Below are positions 23,692 to 64,000 of a DNA stretch of 64,000 bases, piece after piece (position 1 is the first letter of the stretch; each line of letters begins with the position of its first letter). The notes beneath the pieces are model-generated. The model was given only the letters and a program-made list of their open reading frames with translations, did no database searches and was not told where the DNA came from. Source of the DNA: Candidatus Hydrogenedentota bacterium (GTDB lineage Bacteria; Hydrogenedentota; Hydrogenedentia; Hydrogenedentales; JAEUWI01); the NCBI GenBank assembly GCA_019637335.1, contig JAHBVV010000001.1, positions 186,001-250,000 of the forward strand, read 5' to 3'. The translations under genes were made by a program, and so were the position numbers.

Positions 23692-24678
23692 TTACGCCCC
23701 AGGCGTCGCATTGGACTCGTGGTAGCGGCGCAGGCCATCCAGCGCGCGCTGAAAATCTTCCGGCGGCGGCGCCGTAAAGGTCAGCCGCTCTCCTGTTTTC
23801 GGGTGGGTCACGCCGAGGCGTTCCGCGTGAAGCGCCTGGCCGATGAGGCCGTACAGCGCGGCGCGGAGGTCGTCCGGAATAATCCAGTTTCGATACTCAT
23901 GCTCGCCGTACACGGGATCGCCCAGGACCGGGCGGCCCGCGAAGCGCATGTGCACGCGGATCTGGTGGGTGCGGCCGGTCTCCAGCTGCAGGCCCACCAG
24001 GGACGCGATCCCGAAGCGCTCCAGCACCTCAAAATTCGTCACGGCCTCCTTGGCGCGGATCCCGGTCACGGCCATGCGGCTCCGGTCGCTCAGGCTCCGC
24101 CCGATGTTCGCGTTCACGCGGCCGCGTTCCTCCTGAAACTCGCCGCGCACCAGGCAGAGGTAGCGCCGATCGAAGGTGTGCGCCGCCGCCTGGGCCGCGA
24201 GATGGCGAAAGGCCGGCTCGTTCTTCGCCACCACCATCACGCCCGAAGTGTCCCGGTCCAGCCGGTGCACGATGCCCGGCCGGGTCATGTCCTCGCCCGC
24301 GCGCCTGAAATCGGGGCAGTGATACAGTATCGCGTTCACCAGCGTGCCCGTGTGGTGGCCCGGCGCCGGATGCACCACCATGCCGGGCGCCTTATTCACC
24401 ATCACGAGGTCTTCGTCCTCGTACAGGATTTCGAGGGGAATGTTCTCCGGCTCCGGCCAGGCCGACGGGGCCGGCGGCAGATCCACCGTGATCGCGTCGC
24501 CCTCGCTCAGCACGCGGCCCGGCTTGGTGCACGGCGCGCCGTTGAGCATGACGCGCTCGTCCTTGATCAGCTTCTTGAGGTACGAGCGCGTCGCATCCTC
24601 CACCGCCTCCGCGAGAAACACATCGAGCCGGAGGCCCGCATGCTCCTCCCCGGCGTTTATTTCAACCAATTCACTCAA
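23692..24678 (-). CDS. rluD: RluA/RluD-family 23S rRNA pseudouridine synthase
   Basis: An N-terminal S4 RNA-binding domain (GLRLDVFLAEAVEDATRSYL to ERVMLNG) is joined to a RluA-type catalytic domain with GIVHRLDRDTSGVMVVAK, whose second Asp is the nucleophile. VHPAPGHHTGTLVNAILYH and ETGRTHQIRVHM complete the signature. RluD modifies helix 69 of 23S rRNA. The frame is open to an ATG at 24720, but that start falls inside a dispersed repeat. TTG 24678, preceded by AAAGG, gives the usual N-terminal length and is preferred. RluC-like specificity is less likely given the S4 domain and spacing. Confidence 0.85.
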   Translation of the reverse strand: MSELVEINAGEEHAGLRLDVFLAEAVEDATRSYLKKLIKDERVMLNGAPCTKPGRVLSEGDAITVDLPPAPSAWPEPENIPLEILYEDEDLVMVNKAPGMVVHPAPGHHTGTLVNAILYHCPDFRRAGEDMTRPGIVHRLDRDTSGVMVVAKNEPAFRHLAAQAAAHTFDRRYLCLVRGEFQEERGRVNANIGRSLSDRSRMAVTGIRAKEAVTNFEVLERFGIASLVGLQLETGRTHQIRVHMRFAGRPVLGDPVYGEHEYRNWIIPDDLRAALYGLIGQALHAERLGVTHPKTGERLTFTAPPPEDFQRALDGLRRYHESNATPGA

Positions 24679-24720
24679 GAGGCATAACCTTTTTGGTAAC
24701 CGTTTAACCGTCTGAAGCAT

Positions 24721-25997
24721 AGAAAATTTTCAACCACGAATGAACACGAATAAGAGAGACTATTGACCGGGTTCGAAGACTCAAATGGAACGATAACAGG
24801 TCCACCTTTAAGCCTTTGTAACATTCTAGCCGCCTGAAGCAGCAACGCGCGGAAACAGCACGAACGGACCGTTAACGTACGAGGAAGCGATGCAAAGGAT
24901 CGCGGACATTTCTGTCCGCGGCAGGACGAGCACAAGACATCTCGTGATCGCTGCGTATGTGAAGAGGCGCGGGTCGCCAATGCTTTCCGCTCCTGGTGAC
25001 GCCGGGATCCTATTCCAAACCACTTACGTCACTTCATTTCCCGAGCTCCCGTTGCCGCGGACGTGCCGAAGGTCCGCCGAGGCGGAAATGTCCACGATCC
25101 CGCTATTCACGCCGGTCTTGCCCGGGAATCGCCTCCAAGGCGGTGGGTGCTTCATTCCGCTAAAGTGTTACAAAGAATTAAGAATGGATTCCAGCTCCGG
25201 AAGTTTCCGATCAATTCGTGCCAATTCGTGTGCATTCGTGGTTCAATATCCTGGTTGCGGCCAGCGGCTGCGCCGGGTTCTTTGTGCTCTTTGTACTACT
25301 ATCCGTCAACTTCTTGTTTTTTCTGCAAGTTCTTTCGCTCAAGATCCATATAACCGTTTGTTGTAAAAGCATTTACGAAGCGAAAAATCCAGGGAGAATC
25401 TCCGGGCCGTTCCACAAGTGTCGTGGTCGAAATTCTTTTCTTGCCCACGGATTACACCGATGACACGGATTGAAGCGACACCCGAACCAATCGAGAAGAA
25501 GCAGCCCGCCACCCGATCAACCCCGCTAAAATTCCGATGCTGAACAATCCGATCAGGCTGCCTTGGAAACAGCACGCAGCCGCCTGCACACCCCAACGAC
25601 CGAAATCATTTTCTATTCTCTTTCCGTGTCATCAGTGCAATCCGTGGGCACAATTCTTGATCACCGCCCGCGGCTGCTCCCGATGCATTCGTGTGCATTG
25701 GTGTTCATTCGTGGTTAAGAATGCGCTCTCGATCATCCACCCAATCCATCTGCGTACCAGAAATCACCCTATGCGCTCTCTGCGTTCTCTGCGGTTAAAG
25801 CTATTCTCTTTTTTTTCTTCGTGGCCTTCGTGCCCTTCGTGGTGCTCAATTCCTTGGTTGCGGCCAGCGGCTGCCCCGTGTCCATTCGTGGTTAAGCCGC
25901 TACTCAACTTCAGGCGGCTGAAGTTTTGCCCCTTTTGTAACACGGCGCTGACCAATGAAACGCCCGCGACGACACCCGCCTCCCCTACGCGCCGGCA
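24721..25997. repeat. 1.28-kb mosaic of dispersed repeats, no gene
   Basis: The stretch has no credible gene. Arms of ACCACGAATGAACACGAAT (about 24733) and ATTCGTGTGCATTCGTGGTT (about 25224) face each other. 24822-24895 (TAGCCGCCTGAAG onward) recurs at 46545. 24900-25035 recurs inverted at about 46880-47005, and 25575-25735 recurs directly at 47012-47160 with few differences. From 25770 come CTCTGCGTTCTCTGCGG and a run of CTTCGTGG / ATTCGTGG units spaced about 10 nt. GGTTGCGGCCAGCGGCTG appears twice internally. Confidence 0.75.
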
Positions 25998-42627: not shown

Positions 42628-42788
42628 TTCGCGCGCACGGCAAAGGTCCGGTGAACGGCATCGTCCCGCAGCTTTGCGTCTCGTAGGAGAATGCCTCCAA
42701 CTGTCCATTTGGTGATAGTTCAGCGGATTGAAGCTGGCTTGATTCCTCGACGGCACAATCCCGCGCCGCAACGGAAGTGCGGACCAAT

Positions 42789-42830
42789 GGGAGCGCGGGC
42801 GGCCCGCCCGCAACGCGCCGTAGGCGCGAA
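42789..42830. repeat. REP-like hairpin in the heparinase/tail-protein gap
   Basis: GGGAGCGCGGGCGGCCCGCC with CGC, followed by GCGCCGTAGGCGCG, the same layout as at 46737 (GGGAGCGCGGGCGGGCCCGC then GCGCCGAAGGCGC). The 405-nt gap 42628-43032 holds this repeat and a GC-rich remnant; no gene was found in it. Confidence 0.55.
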
Positions 42831-43032
42831 TCTGATATGCGGCGGTAGTCCGGGTCCAACCTGCCCCCCAATCATACATGCCGATACGGTAAACACCTCC
42901 AGGCGCCTTCGGTGCAATGCCGGCGGGCGCACGTTTTGGCGCAGGCGCGGTCCGGCCCGCCCGAAAAAGTGCAATGGCCCATCCCTATAAGCAGGCGCTT
43001 TGTCAAAGGCAACCCCCAAGGAGGAAACCGCC

Positions 43033-43713
43033 ATGCCCGTCAGCCTCGGATCGCACCCCCGCCACCTCGAAGAACTCCGCATCGGAGGCGGATACGGATC
43101 CGCCCCCGACGGCGGCGCCGACTTCGATCGCGCCGGGAACATCGCCGCCAGCGGCAGCCTCGACCTCGGCGGGCCAGCCGCCTTCGAAAGCGACGTCACG
43201 GTCGCCGGCGACTTCGCCGTCACCGGCGTCGACACCACCTGGAGCGCCTACCTCCCCGCAAGTCTCGGCATGCCCGACCCCGCCCTCCCCTGCGGCCCCG
43301 TCACCCCCGTAAGCTGGCGCAACTTCCACGTCGCCACGCCCACCCTCGCCTTCGACCCCAACAACCCCGAAGCCGCCTACTTCCAGTTCCGCCTGCCCCC
43401 GGCCTACGACGGCCGCCCCCTCACCTTCACCATCGAATGGAGCGCACAAGCCGGCACAGGGGGCGATGTGCGGTGGGGGGTTCTACCAATTTCATTCAGT
43501 AACGGAAGCAACTTTGTCGTAACCGGCACTACGACTTTTGTGAACACAACGCTCGGCACATTGGAGACTCTTCATATCACTGAAATCAGTTCCACGCCGC
43601 TGGACTGCGCTTCTGAAACGCTAAATACTGTCAGAATCATCAGATTAAGCAACGATGGGGCAGATACATTTGATGCAGACGCACTTCTTCTCGGGATTGG
43701 AATCTCACTTTGA
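43033..43713 (+). CDS. tail-fibre-like protein with abrupt internal base-composition change (226 aa)
   Basis: AAGGAGG before the ATG is near-ideal. The N-terminal third (DGGADFDRAGNIAASGSLDL to GDFAVTGVDTTW) reads like beta-structured phage tail or adhesin stalk. The C-terminal part (YFQFRLPPAYDGRPLTFTIE to FDADALLLGIGISL) looks like a jelly-roll-type domain of tail proteins. Codons up to about 43470 are strongly GC-rich; from VLPISFSNGS onward the DNA becomes about half AT although the domain continues. This points to replacement of the 3' part. The last 9 nt overlap the convergent methyltransferase gene. Exact function unknown. Confidence 0.6.
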   Translation: MPVSLGSHPRHLEELRIGGGYGSAPDGGADFDRAGNIAASGSLDLGGPAAFESDVTVAGDFAVTGVDTTWSAYLPASLGMPDPALPCGPVTPVSWRNFHVATPTLAFDPNNPEAAYFQFRLPPAYDGRPLTFTIEWSAQAGTGGDVRWGVLPISFSNGSNFVVTGTTTFVNTTLGTLETLHITEISSTPLDCASETLNTVRIIRLSNDGADTFDADALLLGIGISL

Positions 43714-44529
43714 GAGATCATCAGTGTGCGTGTAAATCCCACTTGCCCGCCAACTCACACCCTTGTACGACGAAATATGTACGTTACGAAACTTTTCTGG
43801 CGGAAACCAACCACGTACGCGACTTTCAGAAATGAATTCTACTTGGGGCGCATTCAGCTTATCGAAGACATTGAGCACGTTCCGTTCAAACGACAGGCGC
43901 CTGAAGTTGCTGAAGTACTCGTAGTAGGGAAGCATCTGAAGCGGGAACAGATAGAGCGAGTAGATTGGCAAGTAAAGCACAGAGGTTAAGATCTTCGAAA
44001 TAAGCAGGAGGGCACGAGTACTGGCGTTTCGAAGCGCAATTCGTCGAAGCCTCTCGATGAGAAACTCCGCAATCCAGTTCCCCTCCTTGCTGTACACCCA
44101 CAGAATCAATCTGCCATTCTGCTTCAAGTGCCGCACAAGGTTTGCAACGGTCGAGTCAGGACTATCCGTATGATGTACCACCCCAATAGAGAAAACTACA
44201 TCGAAGTTCTCCTGCAAATCCATCACCGCAATATCTGCCTCAAGAAACTGAACATTCGTAAGGTCTGAGTTCCTTTCTGCGGCAACTTCCACTGCATTAA
44301 GATCGACAGCAACTATTCGCTTGCAGTATGGAGCAACGAAAGATGTGTGCTGTCCGCCGCCACAGCCTGCTTCCAAAACTGTCTTGCCACGGAAATCCTC
44401 CAATTTGTTCGGAGAAATCCATTCTTCAAACAGAAACAACTCCTCATCACGAAAGGCTTTCCATTGCTCCAACCACTTGCTCTGCTTTTCTTGAGCCACG
44501 CTGCATCTCCGCCCCATATATTTGGTCAC
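43705..44529 (-). CDS. class I SAM-dependent methyltransferase (274 aa), AT-rich
   Basis: Motif I is KTVLEAGCGGGQHTSFVAPY (about 50-70), followed by RIVAVDLNAVEVAAER and DVVFSIGVVHHTDSPDST, a typical small-molecule or glycan methyltransferase core. A hydrophobic helix region (LLISKILTSVLYLPIYSLYL) suggests membrane association. Base composition is visibly lower in GC than flanking genes, indicating acquisition. It lies tail to tail with the tail-like gene and head-to-tail with a second methyltransferase; a joint role in modifying a surface glycan or lipid is plausible. Confidence 0.75.
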   Translation of the reverse strand: MTKYMGRRCSVAQEKQSKWLEQWKAFRDEELFLFEEWISPNKLEDFRGKTVLEAGCGGGQHTSFVAPYCKRIVAVDLNAVEVAAERNSDLTNVQFLEADIAVMDLQENFDVVFSIGVVHHTDSPDSTVANLVRHLKQNGRLILWVYSKEGNWIAEFLIERLRRIALRNASTRALLLISKILTSVLYLPIYSLYLFPLQMLPYYEYFSNFRRLSFERNVLNVFDKLNAPQVEFISESRVRGWFPPEKFRNVHISSYKGVSWRASGIYTHTDDLSK

Positions 44530-44550
44530 GCATATAACATGCGGAAAATA

Positions 44551-45264
44551 TCATTCCTTCAGCAGCCTGGCCACAAAATGCAATCGCCGATCACAGAGGC
44601 AGGTCAGTGGCCAAGAATAAAGCCCAAGCGAAAGCTTCAGCGCGTCTTCTCGCAACCCCGAAGATTTAAATGCTTTCTCCCAATTATCCCATGACCAGTA
44701 ATCGTACTTCAGACCTACCCCGTGGCCTCTGTTTCCCAGCCAGTCCATAACTGTGAGCTCGAGTCTATCGAGTTTGTTGTGAGCGATATGATCCTTGACA
44801 ATTACTCCATAGCGTGAAACTCTTGTCATTTCTAGCATCAACTGAACCGGAGCTTCAGTGTGATGTAGAACGTCGGATGCCATACAGTAGTCCCAAGATT
44901 CGTCATCACAAGGAATTGTCTTACCATCAAACTGCAAAGTCAGAATCTGTCGTTCTGGCCACATGAATACGTCTAGGCCGGTTATCCTGAGATCGGGTCT
45001 GAGTTCCAGCACCTTTGAAGCTAGCCATCCATTTCCCGATCCCACATCCAGTACGGTCGAACCTTTCGGAAGTAGCTTGGCAAAGATCTCTGCCAATCGC
45101 ATTGTCCTCCGCGACATTACGTAACGACTATGAAGTTTTGCTAGCTGAACTTCCCATCCAACTGTTCTGTTCTTCCCCTTGGCCTTCAAGCGATTCTCCT
45201 CGCCATATTCTAAGCTATCGAAACCGAAATGACTCACACGGATTCTGGTTTCTTCGAGAAGCAC
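44551..45264 (-). CDS. class I SAM-dependent methyltransferase (237 aa), AT-rich
   Basis: STVLDVGSGNGWLASKVLEL is motif I, followed by ITGLDVFMWPERQ and DYCMASDVLHHTEAPVQLM, a Methyltransf_11/25-like core. The C-terminal part is aromatic-rich (LKYDYWSWDNWEKAFKSSGL). It is 21 nt upstream of the other methyltransferase on the same strand and shares its AT-rich codon use, so the two probably arrived together. The substrate is unknown. Confidence 0.75.
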   Translation of the reverse strand: MLLEETRIRVSHFGFDSLEYGEENRLKAKGKNRTVGWEVQLAKLHSRYVMSRRTMRLAEIFAKLLPKGSTVLDVGSGNGWLASKVLELRPDLRITGLDVFMWPERQILTLQFDGKTIPCDDESWDYCMASDVLHHTEAPVQLMLEMTRVSRYGVIVKDHIAHNKLDRLELTVMDWLGNRGHGVGLKYDYWSWDNWEKAFKSSGLREDALKLSLGLYSWPLTCLCDRRLHFVARLLKE

Positions 45265-45500
45265 CTGGGGTTGCGCTCGTGCCTCGGTTCACCACAAGCT
45301 ATCAACTGTCGCTCCTACGGGGCCGGATGCCGCCACAAACCTTGGAAATCTCCAACAAACAATTGTTTATGATATCGCACTTCCATCTATTGTCTTCTAG
45401 TTTTTTTCGCAAGAATGGGGTGCAGGTTTGGTACTACCGATGCTTTTCTGTAGTGCAGACCGTATATCCGGCAGAAGAGCCGGATGCCAGCGCACGCTTT

Positions 45501-59696: not shown

Positions 59697-59796
59697 GGCT
59701 TACGGGAGCAACTTTCCTGTTAGGGCCGGACTGGTTGTTTCTATAGAGCCGAAGCCGAGTTCGTAGACGCCCAGAACGCGCTTAAACCTTCGCGCG

Positions 59797-60162
59797 TCAA
59801 ATTTCATCCTCGTACTCCCCTAACGCTTCTCGTATAGCTTTTTCGAATCGCTCCGGATCCCGATGGTATACTTTCGCCGTATCCATCACCCGTTTGAGGA
59901 GGTCGCGATCATCCAAAGCCAAGTGCTCAAACCTGATCGATTCCTGAATTTTCTCTTCACTAAATTGTCCAAATAGCTGCCCAAAGGCGGCGTCTAGAAA
60001 CGCCGATGAGAGCGGAGAAACATTGCGAAACGAGACAGAAACAGGCGCATTACGATTTAGTGCCGCACGAATTCTCGAAAAGACTTTGTCGCCATCCCCG
60101 GACGCTACGCAAATCGAACTGGCCACCACGTCATACACAGATATTGCCTCTACACGCCTCAC
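59797..60162 (-). CDS. STAS-like DUF4325-type protein (121 aa)
   Basis: Start GTG 60162 is preceded by AGGAG at 7 nt. The core VSVSFRNVSPLSSAFLDAAF (about 42-61), GQLFGQFSEEKIQESIRF and DRDLLKRVMDTAKVYHRDPE match the DUF4325 pattern, a STAS-like alpha/beta fold. STAS-like proteins usually regulate by binding ATPases or other partners. It is AT-richer than res and lies 70 nt after the 317-residue gene, within the R-M locus. The role there is unknown. Confidence 0.7.
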   Translation of the reverse strand: MRRVEAISVYDVVASSICVASGDGDKVFSRIRAALNRNAPVSVSFRNVSPLSSAFLDAAFGQLFGQFSEEKIQESIRFEHLALDDRDLLKRVMDTAKVYHRDPERFEKAIREALGEYEDEI

Positions 60163-60231
60163 CCAATCGCTCCTAAGCCGATGCTACCAGGCTTTCCGTT
60201 GCCCTGGAGAACCGATGGCAAAATGACGGTG

Positions 60232-61185
60232 TTACTCTTCGGCGTTCGCAAACCGAACCGCTACATAAGATTCCGATGCCGAAATGGCATCTTCGTGTTC
60301 AGACTGCGTAACCAGAAGTGTCGCCAGAACGGACTCACCCCAGTGGAACGTTTTCAAATCCTTCTTCGCCTGGTTCGAAAGAGTTCCCCTTATCAACTCA
60401 TCGCCGGTTCTGAGCTCGAACCGCTCCTGTTCAATGTTTCCACCTACTAGTTCTCCATACCTGTCAATTGTCTCTTGGCGTACTTGTACTTGCGCCAGCC
60501 ATTCAGCTCTGTGTCTCGCTTGATGTGGACTCAAGCGCATCGTCTCATTGCGGTCTTTGTGGCGCATTGAAAGACCAACGTTCTGTTTCGCCAAGAGATC
60601 GATGATCGCCGTATAGTGACTTTTTACGCGAGAATGTGACAGAAGATCGAGTGATTCGACCGATGGTTCATCGTCGCCCAGCAGTAGACAAACCGCCTGC
60701 AACGCTTCCTCGGGGTTGCTCTCCAGTACCTGATCGTCAGCCTTCACGTCGGAAACCTTTACCCGAAACCCGAAGGAGCCTTCGACAAAGCTCGGTTGAA
60801 CATAGAGCCGATTGGCAGTTGAAACCTCTTTCGGAACTCTGGCCCGTTTCGTCGTGGAACCCATTCGAGCCTGACCGACGGCATAAGATAGGGCTTGAAG
60901 CTTTTCGAGAAAAACACCCAAAAGCTGCGCGGGTATTTCGTGCCCTCTAAGCGGTTCACCAGCCAAAACAAAATCCGCAGACGCATTGCCATCATATAGC
61001 TCCGCCGCTCGTAATTCCTCCCGCAGTTCTGCCTCGTGTGCCACAATGGATTCGAGATTGGCCTGCCCCGCAAATCCGAAATCTCCACCTTCGCACAGCG
61101 CTTGTTTGATTTCAAGCAATTCATTCAGCTGTTGCCGAATTTCAACAGCGTGCCTGCGACCATCATAAACTGCCGAATTCATCAT
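60232..61185 (-). CDS. uncharacterised protein embedded in the type III R-M locus (317 aa)
   Basis: The ATG at 61185 overlaps the stop of the nucleotidyltransferase-like gene (ATGATGA), showing coupled translation. Residues 1-70 are predicted helical (EIRQQLNELLEIKQALCEGG). A mixed middle domain contains EIPAQLLGVFLEKLQALSYA and RLYVQPSFVEGSFGFRVKV. The C-terminal 80 residues (RYGELVGGNIEQERFELRTG to DAISASESYVAVRF) look like a small beta barrel. No nuclease, helicase or HEPN R-x4-6-H motif is evident. Codon use is AT-richer than mod or res. Function unknown; context suggests phage defence or control of R-M. Confidence 0.65.
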   Translation of the reverse strand: MMNSAVYDGRRHAVEIRQQLNELLEIKQALCEGGDFGFAGQANLESIVAHEAELREELRAAELYDGNASADFVLAGEPLRGHEIPAQLLGVFLEKLQALSYAVGQARMGSTTKRARVPKEVSTANRLYVQPSFVEGSFGFRVKVSDVKADDQVLESNPEEALQAVCLLLGDDEPSVESLDLLSHSRVKSHYTAIIDLLAKQNVGLSMRHKDRNETMRLSPHQARHRAEWLAQVQVRQETIDRYGELVGGNIEQERFELRTGDELIRGTLSNQAKKDLKTFHWGESVLATLLVTQSEHEDAISASESYVAVRFANAEE

Positions 61186-61754
61186 GGCGTCGTCCTTTTT
61201 GCCGAAACACTGGGAGCGATTGAGGCATCTCCAAGCACAAGCGAAACAAATCCTTTTTCGCGGCCAGGTCCGGGTGTCCCGTTGGGGGCCACGGTTCCCC
61301 GGGTGCTCCCAAACCACTTCCGCCAGTATAGCCGTTGTCTCTCGAAAACGCCAAAGAACCTGTTACTTGGGTCGCAACATGGAACTAGAAATGTGTGGCA
61401 GCCATATTTCTCCTTCGTGTCTTCACGCCCATGGAGCAATTGTCTCACTACATTCTGTTGGTCGATAAATAACGCGTTGAGCAAGTCGATCTCCACAAAT
61501 GTCACCACATCGACATCGTCCGGATCTGCCTTGTCGGTAACATAGGAGCCGTCTACCCATTGAGTTGCGGCAGACAAGACGACTTCCGCCTCATCGCGGA
61601 GTTTCTTGAATCCGTCAAAGAGCACCCTCCTTTGCGACGAATTGGGGAATGCATCCACGAACTTCTCTTTAAACACGCCCTCGTCACACACATACACACC
61701 ATCGAGCAGCAATCCATGCGGATCGAAGTCCGGTATCATCCCCGTTTCACTCAT
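61182..61754 (-). CDS. DUF6932-type nucleotidyltransferase-like protein (190 aa)
   Basis: [20 protein letters not shown] precedes [20 protein letters not shown] (about 66-85), the G-S ... D-x-D pattern of minimal nucleotidyltransferases. The following [18 protein letters not shown] is family-like. The start overlaps the mod stop (ATGA), and its own stop overlaps the next gene, so mod, this gene and the 317-residue protein are translated as one chain. Minimal nucleotidyltransferases often act as antitoxins or toxins that modify a partner. The assignment to DUF6932 is by memory of its motif and is moderate. Confidence 0.68.
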
Positions 61755-64000
61755 GTTCTTACCTCCACAATCGTCATCGTGTCATTCCCGAAGATATCCA
61801 CCACCTTCACCGCGATCTTCCGCGGCCCCGGCGGGCATTCGTGGGCGACGCTTTTGAGCTCCAGGCTCCGGTCCTTCCGCGTCCGGAAGCTCTGCCATTC
61901 GTTCTCGAAGACGTAGTCGCCGGTCCAGACCTCCTCGTATTCCACGATCTCGCCCTGGGGCGGCTCCGCGCCCTCCAGGTGGCCCTGGCCGGGCAGCGGG
62001 CGCGCTACGCGGATGAGTTCGCGCTTGCTCTCGAAGTCGAAATCCACCGACCAGTAATCGATCCAGTCGGTCCAGTGATCGGTCAGCACCTCGCGCTTGA
62101 TGACGCCCTTCGCGTTCTTGGTCAGCTTCACGATCTGGCCCTTTTCCACCACGATCCGGCTGCCCGTCTTCTTCTTGCCCAGGGCCTCCTCCGCCCGGGC
62201 GATGGAATCCTGGGAGTAGAACACGGAGAAATCGGTCAGCTCCACCGCCACCGTGGGGGATTTGGTCTTGGTCCCCTTGGTCACGTGGGGCTTCACCTCG
62301 ATGAAGGACACATCGTGGAAGACCACCTGGTTCTTCTCCACCGCCCGCTTGTCGAAGACCTCCGCCGGGATGTATTTCGGCTGGATATCGATGCCCTTGG
62401 CCTTCGCCTCGTCCAGCACGTTGGGGAAAAGCCCCATTTCGAATTCGAAGCCGAGGATGTCCACCTTGGTCACATGCTTCTTGCGGCATTCCAGGATGAT
62501 TTCCTCCACGAAGAGGCGCGTCACCGGCAGGTTCACCGGCCCCACCGCCACGAGCCGCCCCGCCTTCTTCCCGTGGAAATGCTCGAACTGGGTGATCGGC
62601 TCGGCCTGGTACGCGCGCAGGATCAGCGCCAGGAAATCCGCCTCCCGCTCCGCCAGTTGGCGCCGCTGCTCCTCCTCCCGCAGGTTCGGGTTCACCCCGA
62701 TGTAGTGCTGCCGCTCGTATTTGCCCAGGTTCAATATCTCGAAGGCGCGGTAGTCCTTGCCCTCCGCCTTCAGCGAACGCTGCACCCCGATCATCCGCTT
62801 CCGCGTCGTGTGAATCCCGAATTTCCCCAGGTCGCTCGCGATCCACTTCCGCCCCAGCTTCTCCGCCACCGCCGCCGTAGTCCCGGATCCGCAGAAGAAA
62901 TCCGCCACGAGATCGCCGGGGTTGGAGGAGGCGTTGATGATGCGCTCGAGGAGGGCCTCGGGTTTCTGGGTGGGGTACTTCAAGAGCTCCGCGTTTTTTC
63001 CCTTTAGGAGCTTTATGTCCACCCACAGGTTAGTAATCAATTGCCCTTCATAAGAATCGAGATAGACTTTCCTGTAGACTTGCTTATTCTTGTCCTTTGG
63101 ATAGTAGATTAGCCCCTGACCATCTAGCTCCTCCATCTTTTTTCGGGAATAACGCCACCCATTGGCTGGTGTCTTGTAACCTTTAAAGTCATAGTACAGA
63201 TTAGGCCTATACGTTGGACTTCCGCATACGTTAAGCATGAACCTACGACCATCTGGATCGGACTTGGTAAACATCTGATCAACATAGTCTGGATCGGGTT
63301 CCATATATACCTGATTCCAAATGGGAGCATCGGATTTGGAATATAGGTAGATTGTATCTGTGTTTACCGACATCTTGTTCATATTGCTGAGCGCGGAACC
63401 GCCTTTGCGCTTCCAAATAATCTCGTTGACAAGTTTCTCATCACCGAACACCTCGCTCAGTACCTGTCGGATGTGGCTGTTCACCCGCCAATCGCAATGC
63501 ACATAAATACTCCCATCCTCCGCAAGCAAGTCCCGCATGAGCACGAGCCGCTCGTAGATCATGGCGATGAAGGAGTCTGCACCCTTTCCCCAGGTGTCTC
63601 GGTACGCGATTTCCTCGAGGATATTGGGCTTCTTGGTGAAGGTGTCAGAGGTCCCGTCGAAAGACGGGATTTCGATGTCCATGGAGAAGTCGGCGCCCAC
63701 GTCGAAGGGCGGGTCGATGTAGATGAGCTTGAGGCCGCCCTGGGCTTCGATTTCCTCGCGGAGGGGGCCGTTTTTCAGGCTGGAGAGGATGAGCTTGTTG
63801 TCGCCCCAGATGAGCTTGTTGGTCCAGCCCTGGAGCTGGCGCCCGCGCGCGTCGAACATGTCGAGCTGGGGGTCGGTGTCCTCCGGCTTTTCGGCGCGCG
63901 GCTCGTCCACCTGCTCGATGACCTGAAAGGGGAGGACGATATTGCAGACCTCGCCCGACTTGCCATTCCAGACCAGCTCCACCTCGCGCTTGTCTTCAAA
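61751..64000 (-). CDS. type III restriction-modification system DNA methyltransferase Mod (C-terminal 749 residues; gene continues past the window)
   Basis: A beta-class adenine/cytosine-N methyltransferase. The reading frame is open to base 64000; a GTG at 63982 could be misread as a start, but upstream codons ([11 protein letters not shown]) continue in family-like sequence. Motif [16 protein letters not shown] comes first, then [20 protein letters not shown] target-recognition segment follows (about 63440-63000 in DNA), then motif [22 protein letters not shown] long C-terminal part binds partner or DNA. It methylates the recognition site and pairs with Res at 57018. The recognition segment is visibly AT-richer than the rest. 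First gene of the coupled defence series. Confidence 0.9.

Follow-up and report, generated by a model that had tools for sequence, protein, structure and literature searches.

Exchange of fibre tips is already known from phage fibres and, more recently, from cellular fibres of the bacterium Bdellovibrio bacteriovorus. According to the relevant passages of the Bdellovibrio report, members of the mosaic adhesive trimer (MAT) superfamily are cellular fibres in which the N-terminal end is conserved while the C-terminal tip is exchanged: behind a signal peptide come a conserved domain, about 130 aa in length, and then a long shaft, 21 paralogues occur in one genome, some of the tips are beta-sandwiches, and one member binds prey glycans (PMC10769870). 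For the exchange of phage tail fibres and receptor-binding proteins, e.g. in Alteromonas phages, recombination between relatives has been proposed (PMC10579305). A further point of reference is provided by the surface polysaccharide loci of Enterobacteriales, for which horizontal transfer of whole loci and of their parts is described together with relaxed purifying selection (PMC7305143).

The locus considered here lies in a stretch of 64,000 nucleotides from the genome of an uncultured Hydrogenedentota bacterium, which we refer to as the window. In it, a low-GC tract that varies between species takes in the 3' part of a fibre-like protein's gene together with one or two modification genes next to it. 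Literature searches recovered nothing joining Hydrogenedentota to tail fibres and nothing on the fibre gene itself, and likewise nothing joining Hydrogenedentota, methyltransferases and carbohydrate-binding.

The composition break and the low-GC tract

Sliding-window GC is 0.63-0.73 up to position 43400 and falls to 0.46-0.53 over 43400-45500. Two-state segmentation places the limits of the low-GC part as follows:

43481 to 45467, strand not applicable: low-GC tract (GC 0.478), beginning at codon 150 of the fibre gene and ending past the second methyltransferase gene, MT2

Within the fibre gene the best single GC step comes after nucleotide 447 of 678 (43479/43480), i.e. between codons 149 and 150, and takes GC from 0.718 to 0.455 (z 6.7). 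An earlier, sequence-only reading of this DNA had described a tail-like gene that is GC-rich over its first two thirds and then drops, with low GC persisting through two opposite-strand methyltransferases to about 45460; both statements are borne out by the positions of the step and of the tract end, and the calculated composition shows a sharp break in place of a smooth change. Among 269 genes, called by a simple in-house script in the window and 20 further stretches of 20 kb from elsewhere in this genome (together 464 kb out of 7.16 Mb), the step of the fibre gene ranks first, and steps of at least 0.2 occur in only two. Since segmentation finds other low-GC tracts inside the window (24656-25819, 59710-61797 and 62976-63690), low GC alone is not unique there, and what stands out is the sharp step within a gene. 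A strong internal step is also present in a gene on the minus strand at 61751-63982 (z -5.0, GC 0.52/0.63).

A shift of composition within a few bases is what might be expected of an assembly chimera joining two sources within the fibre gene, but the same codon break, with an intact reading frame, recurs in three independent genomes. An assembly join at the break is therefore unlikely, and we accord it hardly any probability at all.

The fibre-like protein and its family

The gene in which the tract begins and its first module are placed as follows:

43033 to 43713, plus strand: gene of a fibre-like protein of 226 aa, with an N-terminal module (codons 1-69) and a predicted CBM35/CBM6-like beta-sandwich (codons 70-226)
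43033 to 43239, plus strand: N-terminal module, HPR.LEELRIGGGYGS.PDGG.DFD..GNI, with a low-confidence structure and common to proteins with other C-terminal ends

A Shine-Dalgarno-like AAGGAGG is found directly upstream of the gene. On direct reading the N-terminus of the protein is not hydrophobic and there is no evident signal peptide, and the protein has no Pfam, PHROG or NCBIfam match at E up to 1. In the AlphaFold2 model the N-terminal module, which is about 65-70 aa long and whose motif may also be written PRYLEELRIGGGYGS.PDGG.DFD..GNI, mostly has pLDDT values of 36-52, and residues 71-226 form a confident beta domain mostly above 80. The best match of residues 69-226 to a solved structure is the CBM35 domain 2w1w_A (Z 13.1, rmsd 2.5, 126 aligned residues, 6% identity), with many CBM35/CBM6 entries tied within Z 1 of it; as modelled, the C-terminal domain has a CBM35/CBM6-like two-sheet beta-sandwich fold. 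Membership of a curated CBM sequence family was considered and rejected, there being no Pfam family at E up to 1, and a PDB sequence search with the profile of alignment A1 (see below) returned nothing of weight (best E 0.39). Residues 145-155 are a single strand in the model, and the composition break at codon 149/150 thus cuts through a beta strand and does not coincide with the edge of a domain.

Matches to the fibre protein occur in 38 of the 100 genomes searched. Near-full-length copies number ten, namely the window's own (G000) and those of G001, G002, G003, G006, G007, G008, G015, G021 and G032; the gene of G028, which carries a long insertion, matches in two pieces and was excluded from alignment A1 and from all analyses built on it. 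Most of the remaining matching genomes align only over about residues 4-64, and hence one N-terminal module is combined with different C-terminal ends across genera. From the 38 matching genomes 26 proteins were inspected, ten being included in alignment A1 (the window's among them) and 11 in alignment A2. At least two C-terminal types are found on the module: the sandwich type of the window and a type B, which ends in a WYLFVEDDGT motif and whose members mostly have a hydrophobic N-terminus. The type B family consists of uncharacterised Hydrogenedentota proteins (L068, L069, L071, L073-L077 and others). Its model is poor (pLDDT 62) and its best structural match, to Bdellovibrio fibre beta-helices, is weak (Z 5.9). 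In the eight proteins scanned with type B or other ends, neither the module nor the ends gave a Pfam match, the sole exception being a sub-cutoff CBM_4_9 match in G029; PHROG matches to tail families in G042 and G029 sit in the middle parts of these proteins.

Of the 70 genomes searched for the sandwich domain, 12 have it (E 0.01 or better), in every case at loci of the fibre family except for G041, where the match is weak and partial. A scan of the genome collection with the alignment yielded 11 loci, most of them from Hydrogenedentota/Hydrogenedentes, and a scan with the single sequence yielded 58 candidate stretches, none of which was confirmed as a relative. In its own genome the fibre gene is single-copy, with one match to the 5' module. 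Paralogues sharing this module and differing in their 3' ends, for which the earlier reading had suggested a search, are thus absent from the genome, and the same 5' module with different 3' ends is seen between genera only.

The designation of the gene as tail-like holds by shape, as the top matches among predicted structures include phage proteins, and does not extend to sequence families, in which the protein has no match. The N-terminal repeats and the type B relatives are fibre-like in look and an uncultured Caudovirales protein heads the BFVD matches of the model (TM 0.63, E 4e-13, 20% identity), all of which would suit a true phage or prophage tail gene undergoing exchange of tail tips between phages. 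Against this, the genes tested near the fibre gene, coding for esterase, heparinase-like, cold-shock and small zinc-ribbon-like proteins, include no phage hallmark or prophage gene, and a WD40 kinase (WD40 by direct reading) also lies nearby; in other genomes the neighbours are metabolic or glycan genes. Moreover, PHROG gave no match, the 25 candidate stretches from an IMG/VR search with A1 include no confirmed relative, tblastn of the protein found no match in 50,697 phage records, and the contractile sheath PF04984 was not found in the genome (the control was positive in 3 of 14 genomes). Membership of the phage tail fibres was accordingly rejected, as resemblance of fold is by itself insufficient where these searches found no phage structural genes or homologues, and we regard a phage tail gene as very improbable.

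The adjoining genes and variation among relatives

Two methyltransferase genes lie in the remainder of the tract:

43705 to 44529, minus strand: MT1, class I SAM-dependent methyltransferase (Pfam Methyltransf_11, E 4.8e-18), start codon uncertain
44551 to 45264, minus strand: MT2, class I SAM-dependent methyltransferase (Pfam Methyltransf_11, E 1.2e-8), start uncertain, with homology beginning at about residue 36-41

MT1 is convergent with the fibre gene and overlaps it by 9 nt. METHYLTRANSFERASES (MT1, MT2) are both class I SAM enzymes of the small-molecule type, and the models listed for them are only class I models of small-molecule, tRNA and protein type. A role as DNA methylases or in restriction-modification was rejected, no DNA methylase family domain being among these models; as enzymes of the small-molecule type, MT1 and MT2 are not DNA modification genes. 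The earlier reading of both genes as methyltransferases is thus borne out, and its proposed cassette would bring modification genes other than DNA modifiers. Among 386 genomes, MT1 was found in five (E 1e-40 or better), at only 34-37% identity in two of them; MT2 was found in nine of 70 (E 1e-8 or better), and its tree lacks resolution. In G042 homologues of both lie within 5 kb of each other, with GT2 and asparagine-synthase-type genes between them, and in G065, G048 and G038 MT2 is near asparagine-synthase-type, carbamoyltransferase, GT2 or DUF2142 genes. This genomic context, in which homologues from other families keep company with GT2, Asn_synthase, DUF2142 and carbamoyltransferase genes, points to a putative role of MT1 and MT2 in glycan modification.

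The genus was sampled at species level, with four species: G000 (the window) and G001, G002 and G003. The step scan places the break at codon 150 in G001 (z 3.7) and at codon 144 in G003, which is equivalent to 150 after a 6-codon gap (z 3.7), and finds a weak break at codon 115 in G002 (z 2.4). Segmentation has the tract start at alignment codons 149.6, 150.3 and 149 in G000, G001 and G003, and at 166 in G002. Thus, the break is at the same codon in three of the four species. The six full-length relatives outside the genus have no strong step (absolute z 1.3-2.7). In one of these six, of the same family and another genus (G006), low GC starts only from the last fibre codons and an unnamed convergent ORF lies behind (L066 3592-4154), the contig ending at that low-GC stretch.

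Protein diversity within the genus is 0.267 over residues 70-149 and 0.602 over residues 150-226, a contrast measured between species, whereas six genomes from other genera have nearly equal values for the two parts (0.648 and 0.660); past the break, members of the genus thus differ almost like different families. The change-point of genus diversity is at residue 156 (0 of 5000 permutations), and the excess of residues 150-226 over residues 70-149, with outgroup diversity subtracted, likewise gave 0 of 10000. Unlinked branch lengths for the two domain halves are preferred to proportional ones by lnL 30.9 for 16 parameters, and AIC agrees, whereas BIC favours proportional lengths (6336 vs 6355). 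The trees of both halves group the genus (91/97 and, for the 3' part, 95/98) and no conflict of topology was found between them; given this grouping of the 3' part, a donor would have been a close relative. The whole fibre gene aligns across families with its 3' end included, and judged by such alignment the 3' tip is homologous and no foreign end of a novel kind.

The genes behind the fibre gene also differ. In G000 and G001 the low-GC set consists of MT1 and MT2 in the same order, convergent with the fibre gene; in G002 it consists of an MT2 homologue in the same direction as the fibre gene followed by an arylsulfotransferase (ASST), and in G003 of an MT2 homologue alone. The ASST-like gene of G002 (L060 2975-4270) has a GC of 0.49; in G003 it is missing from the interval that separates MT2 from the DapA-like gene. 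The fibre unit occupies three sites, at HEP in G000, at an ADH-ADH-aldolase operon in G001 and, in both G002 and G003, at a DapA-like gene. In G001 the AXE-HEP pair is without the unit, the ADH-aldolase operons of G000 and G002 are on stretches apart from it, and the fibre gene is a single match per genome. Between G000 and G001, the identity of flanking genes is 70% (HEP), 78% (AXE), 77% (transporter), 85 and 90% (ADH) and 93% (aldolase), and that of the tract 53% (fibre 3' part), 63% (MT1) and 45% (MT2). At 80-93% identity across G000, G001 and G002, the operon with its two dehydrogenase genes and its class II aldolase gene (L059 5853-6572 and L159 9102-9818) is conserved much more strongly than the rest of the genes compared. 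In the window, repeats lie to either side of the unit:

42715 to 42927, strand not applicable: intergenic dispersed repeat of about 210 bp, left of the unit, with at least six further copies at 83-85% in the genome
45443 to 45704, strand not applicable: palindromic repeat, likewise intergenic and dispersed, where the low-GC tract ends on the right, with 43-nt arms that are 86% complementary and pieces that recur at 17 further places of the genome

The idea that the 3' end was replaced by a cassette therefore survives in part: it accords with the sharp break, its recurrence at one codon in three of four species, the rise of diversity and the varying adjoining genes, and it is tempered by a 3' end that is homologous to the domain of other families and groups with its genus, and by a break inside a strand. 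Similarly, the opposite case, a whole gene conserved as one unit among relatives, applies insofar as the gene aligns across families and breaks down within the genus, where the 3' part is hypervariable and the adjoining genes vary.

Four-fold sites compared between G000 and G001 are identical at 0.30 against 0.24 by chance in the fibre 3' part (n=23), 0.30 against 0.25 in MT1 (n=61) and 0.26 against 0.25 in MT2 (n=39), with excesses over chance of 0.08, 0.06 and 0.01, respectively. GC3 of the tract is 0.44-0.58 in G000/G001, as against 0.73-0.90 in the HEP and AXE genes, and 0.42-0.55 in G002/G003, as against 0.71-0.75 in two other genes; overall, the tract has a GC of about 0.48 in each of the four species, irrespective of that of the host. 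One import into the ancestor of the genus, followed by vertical descent with fast evolution of the 3' end and the methyltransferases and retention of low GC, would account for a break that is common to the genus and absent, by the step scan, from the six outside relatives, for a 3' part monophyletic for the genus, and for the order of MT1 and MT2 kept in G000 and G001. However, with synonymous sites of the tract nearly saturated between species its composition would be expected to have come close to that of the host, and yet GC3 is still low; gene content and orientation also differ between G000/G001 and G002/G003. A single old import thus does not explain the tract, and we consider it a fairly unlikely history.

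The best reading of these data is that something holds the GC of the tract low, either repeated import of low-GC alleles, which we prefer, or a special local regime. The latter would dispense with import and exchange and invoke a different local equilibrium, e.g. relaxed selection or weak biased gene conversion combined with an AT bias of mutation, or selection in favour of AT-rich DNA that can be silenced. Fast evolution of the tract and its uniform GC in hosts of differing value are in line with such an equilibrium, and, reportedly, AT-rich accessory DNA can be favoured (PMC6519830). Nevertheless, such a regime does not readily account for a border at one codon that lies within a domain and recurs at this position in three species, and other genes at 66-70% identity hold a high GC3 of 0.71-0.90. 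We therefore deem a local equilibrium quite unlikely.

Proposed exchange and comparison with known systems

A short sequence next to the break is a candidate for the point at which recombination enters:

43465 to 43478, plus strand: candidate crossover anchor, a 14-nt run GATGTGCGGTGGGG coding for DVRWG, identical in G000, G001 and G002

It is the longest stretch identical in these three species, extends to 17 nt between G001 and G002, and ends one base before the break; G003 has no exact copy. Runs of at least 14 nt arose in 198 of 5000 column shuffles, which is borderline, and the match of position was noticed post hoc.

Repeated exchange is the reading that we favour, as a proposal. We put at about even the chance that we are dealing with a surface-fibre locus, small and mobile, whose hypervariable tip and glycan-modification genes are repeatedly exchanged near a short motif. 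The fibre protein would be displayed outside the cell, which for a protein of this N-terminus is a guess, and would bind a glycan, as we infer; the adjoining methyltransferases, and the ASST in one species, would decorate surface glycans. Homologous recombination might enter the tract near the conserved GDVRWG motif and exit beyond the modification genes, and the tract would be replaced again and again from a pool of low-GC alleles. Such replacement is proposed to keep its composition low despite synonymous turnover. No donor of the tract was found, and among the four species no strain-level exchange was seen. A more specific version, which we hold to be unlikely, is a cellular, non-phage specificity cassette in which half of a glycan-binding domain and glycan-methylating or -sulfating enzymes are replaced together via a short in-domain anchor, the unit also moving between sites. 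If true, a cell would change its surface glycan and the fibre reading that glycan in one step.

In the predicted fold of residues 69-226 the tip resembles CBM35/CBM6 modules; it differs from them in its 6% identity, in the lack of a Pfam CBM match and in having no enzyme attached, and its ligand binding is putative. With the polysaccharide loci of Enterobacteriales (PMC7305143) the locus shares a dynamic behaviour, whereas those are large synthesis loci and here a single fibre gene travels with one to three low-GC genes. As in phage tail-fibre exchange (PMC10579305), a proximal part is conserved and a distal part exchanged, but there is no phage context here, methyltransferases take the place of a chaperone in the block, and the break lies off the domain border.

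The likeness to the MATs of Bdellovibrio would be that of a non-phage fibre-type protein whose N-terminal module is combined with differing C-terminal ends, here between genera. Membership of the MAT superfamily was rejected on two features, since on direct reading the protein shows neither an evident signal peptide nor the 130-aa domain, its module being about half that length at roughly 65-70 aa. Unlike the MATs, the fibre protein is short, single-copy and without an evident signal peptide, its variability starts inside the tip domain, and its unit includes methyltransferase genes, of which the passages on MATs make no mention. If the proposed exchange is true, what would be new relative to phage and Bdellovibrio fibres is that the exchanged block starts inside a binding domain and includes modification genes, and that it does so in a little-known phylum. 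Persistent low GC at synonymous saturation, together with a border at one codon, would then help to tell, in bacteria that have not been cultured, whether exchange is still going on or an import took place long ago.
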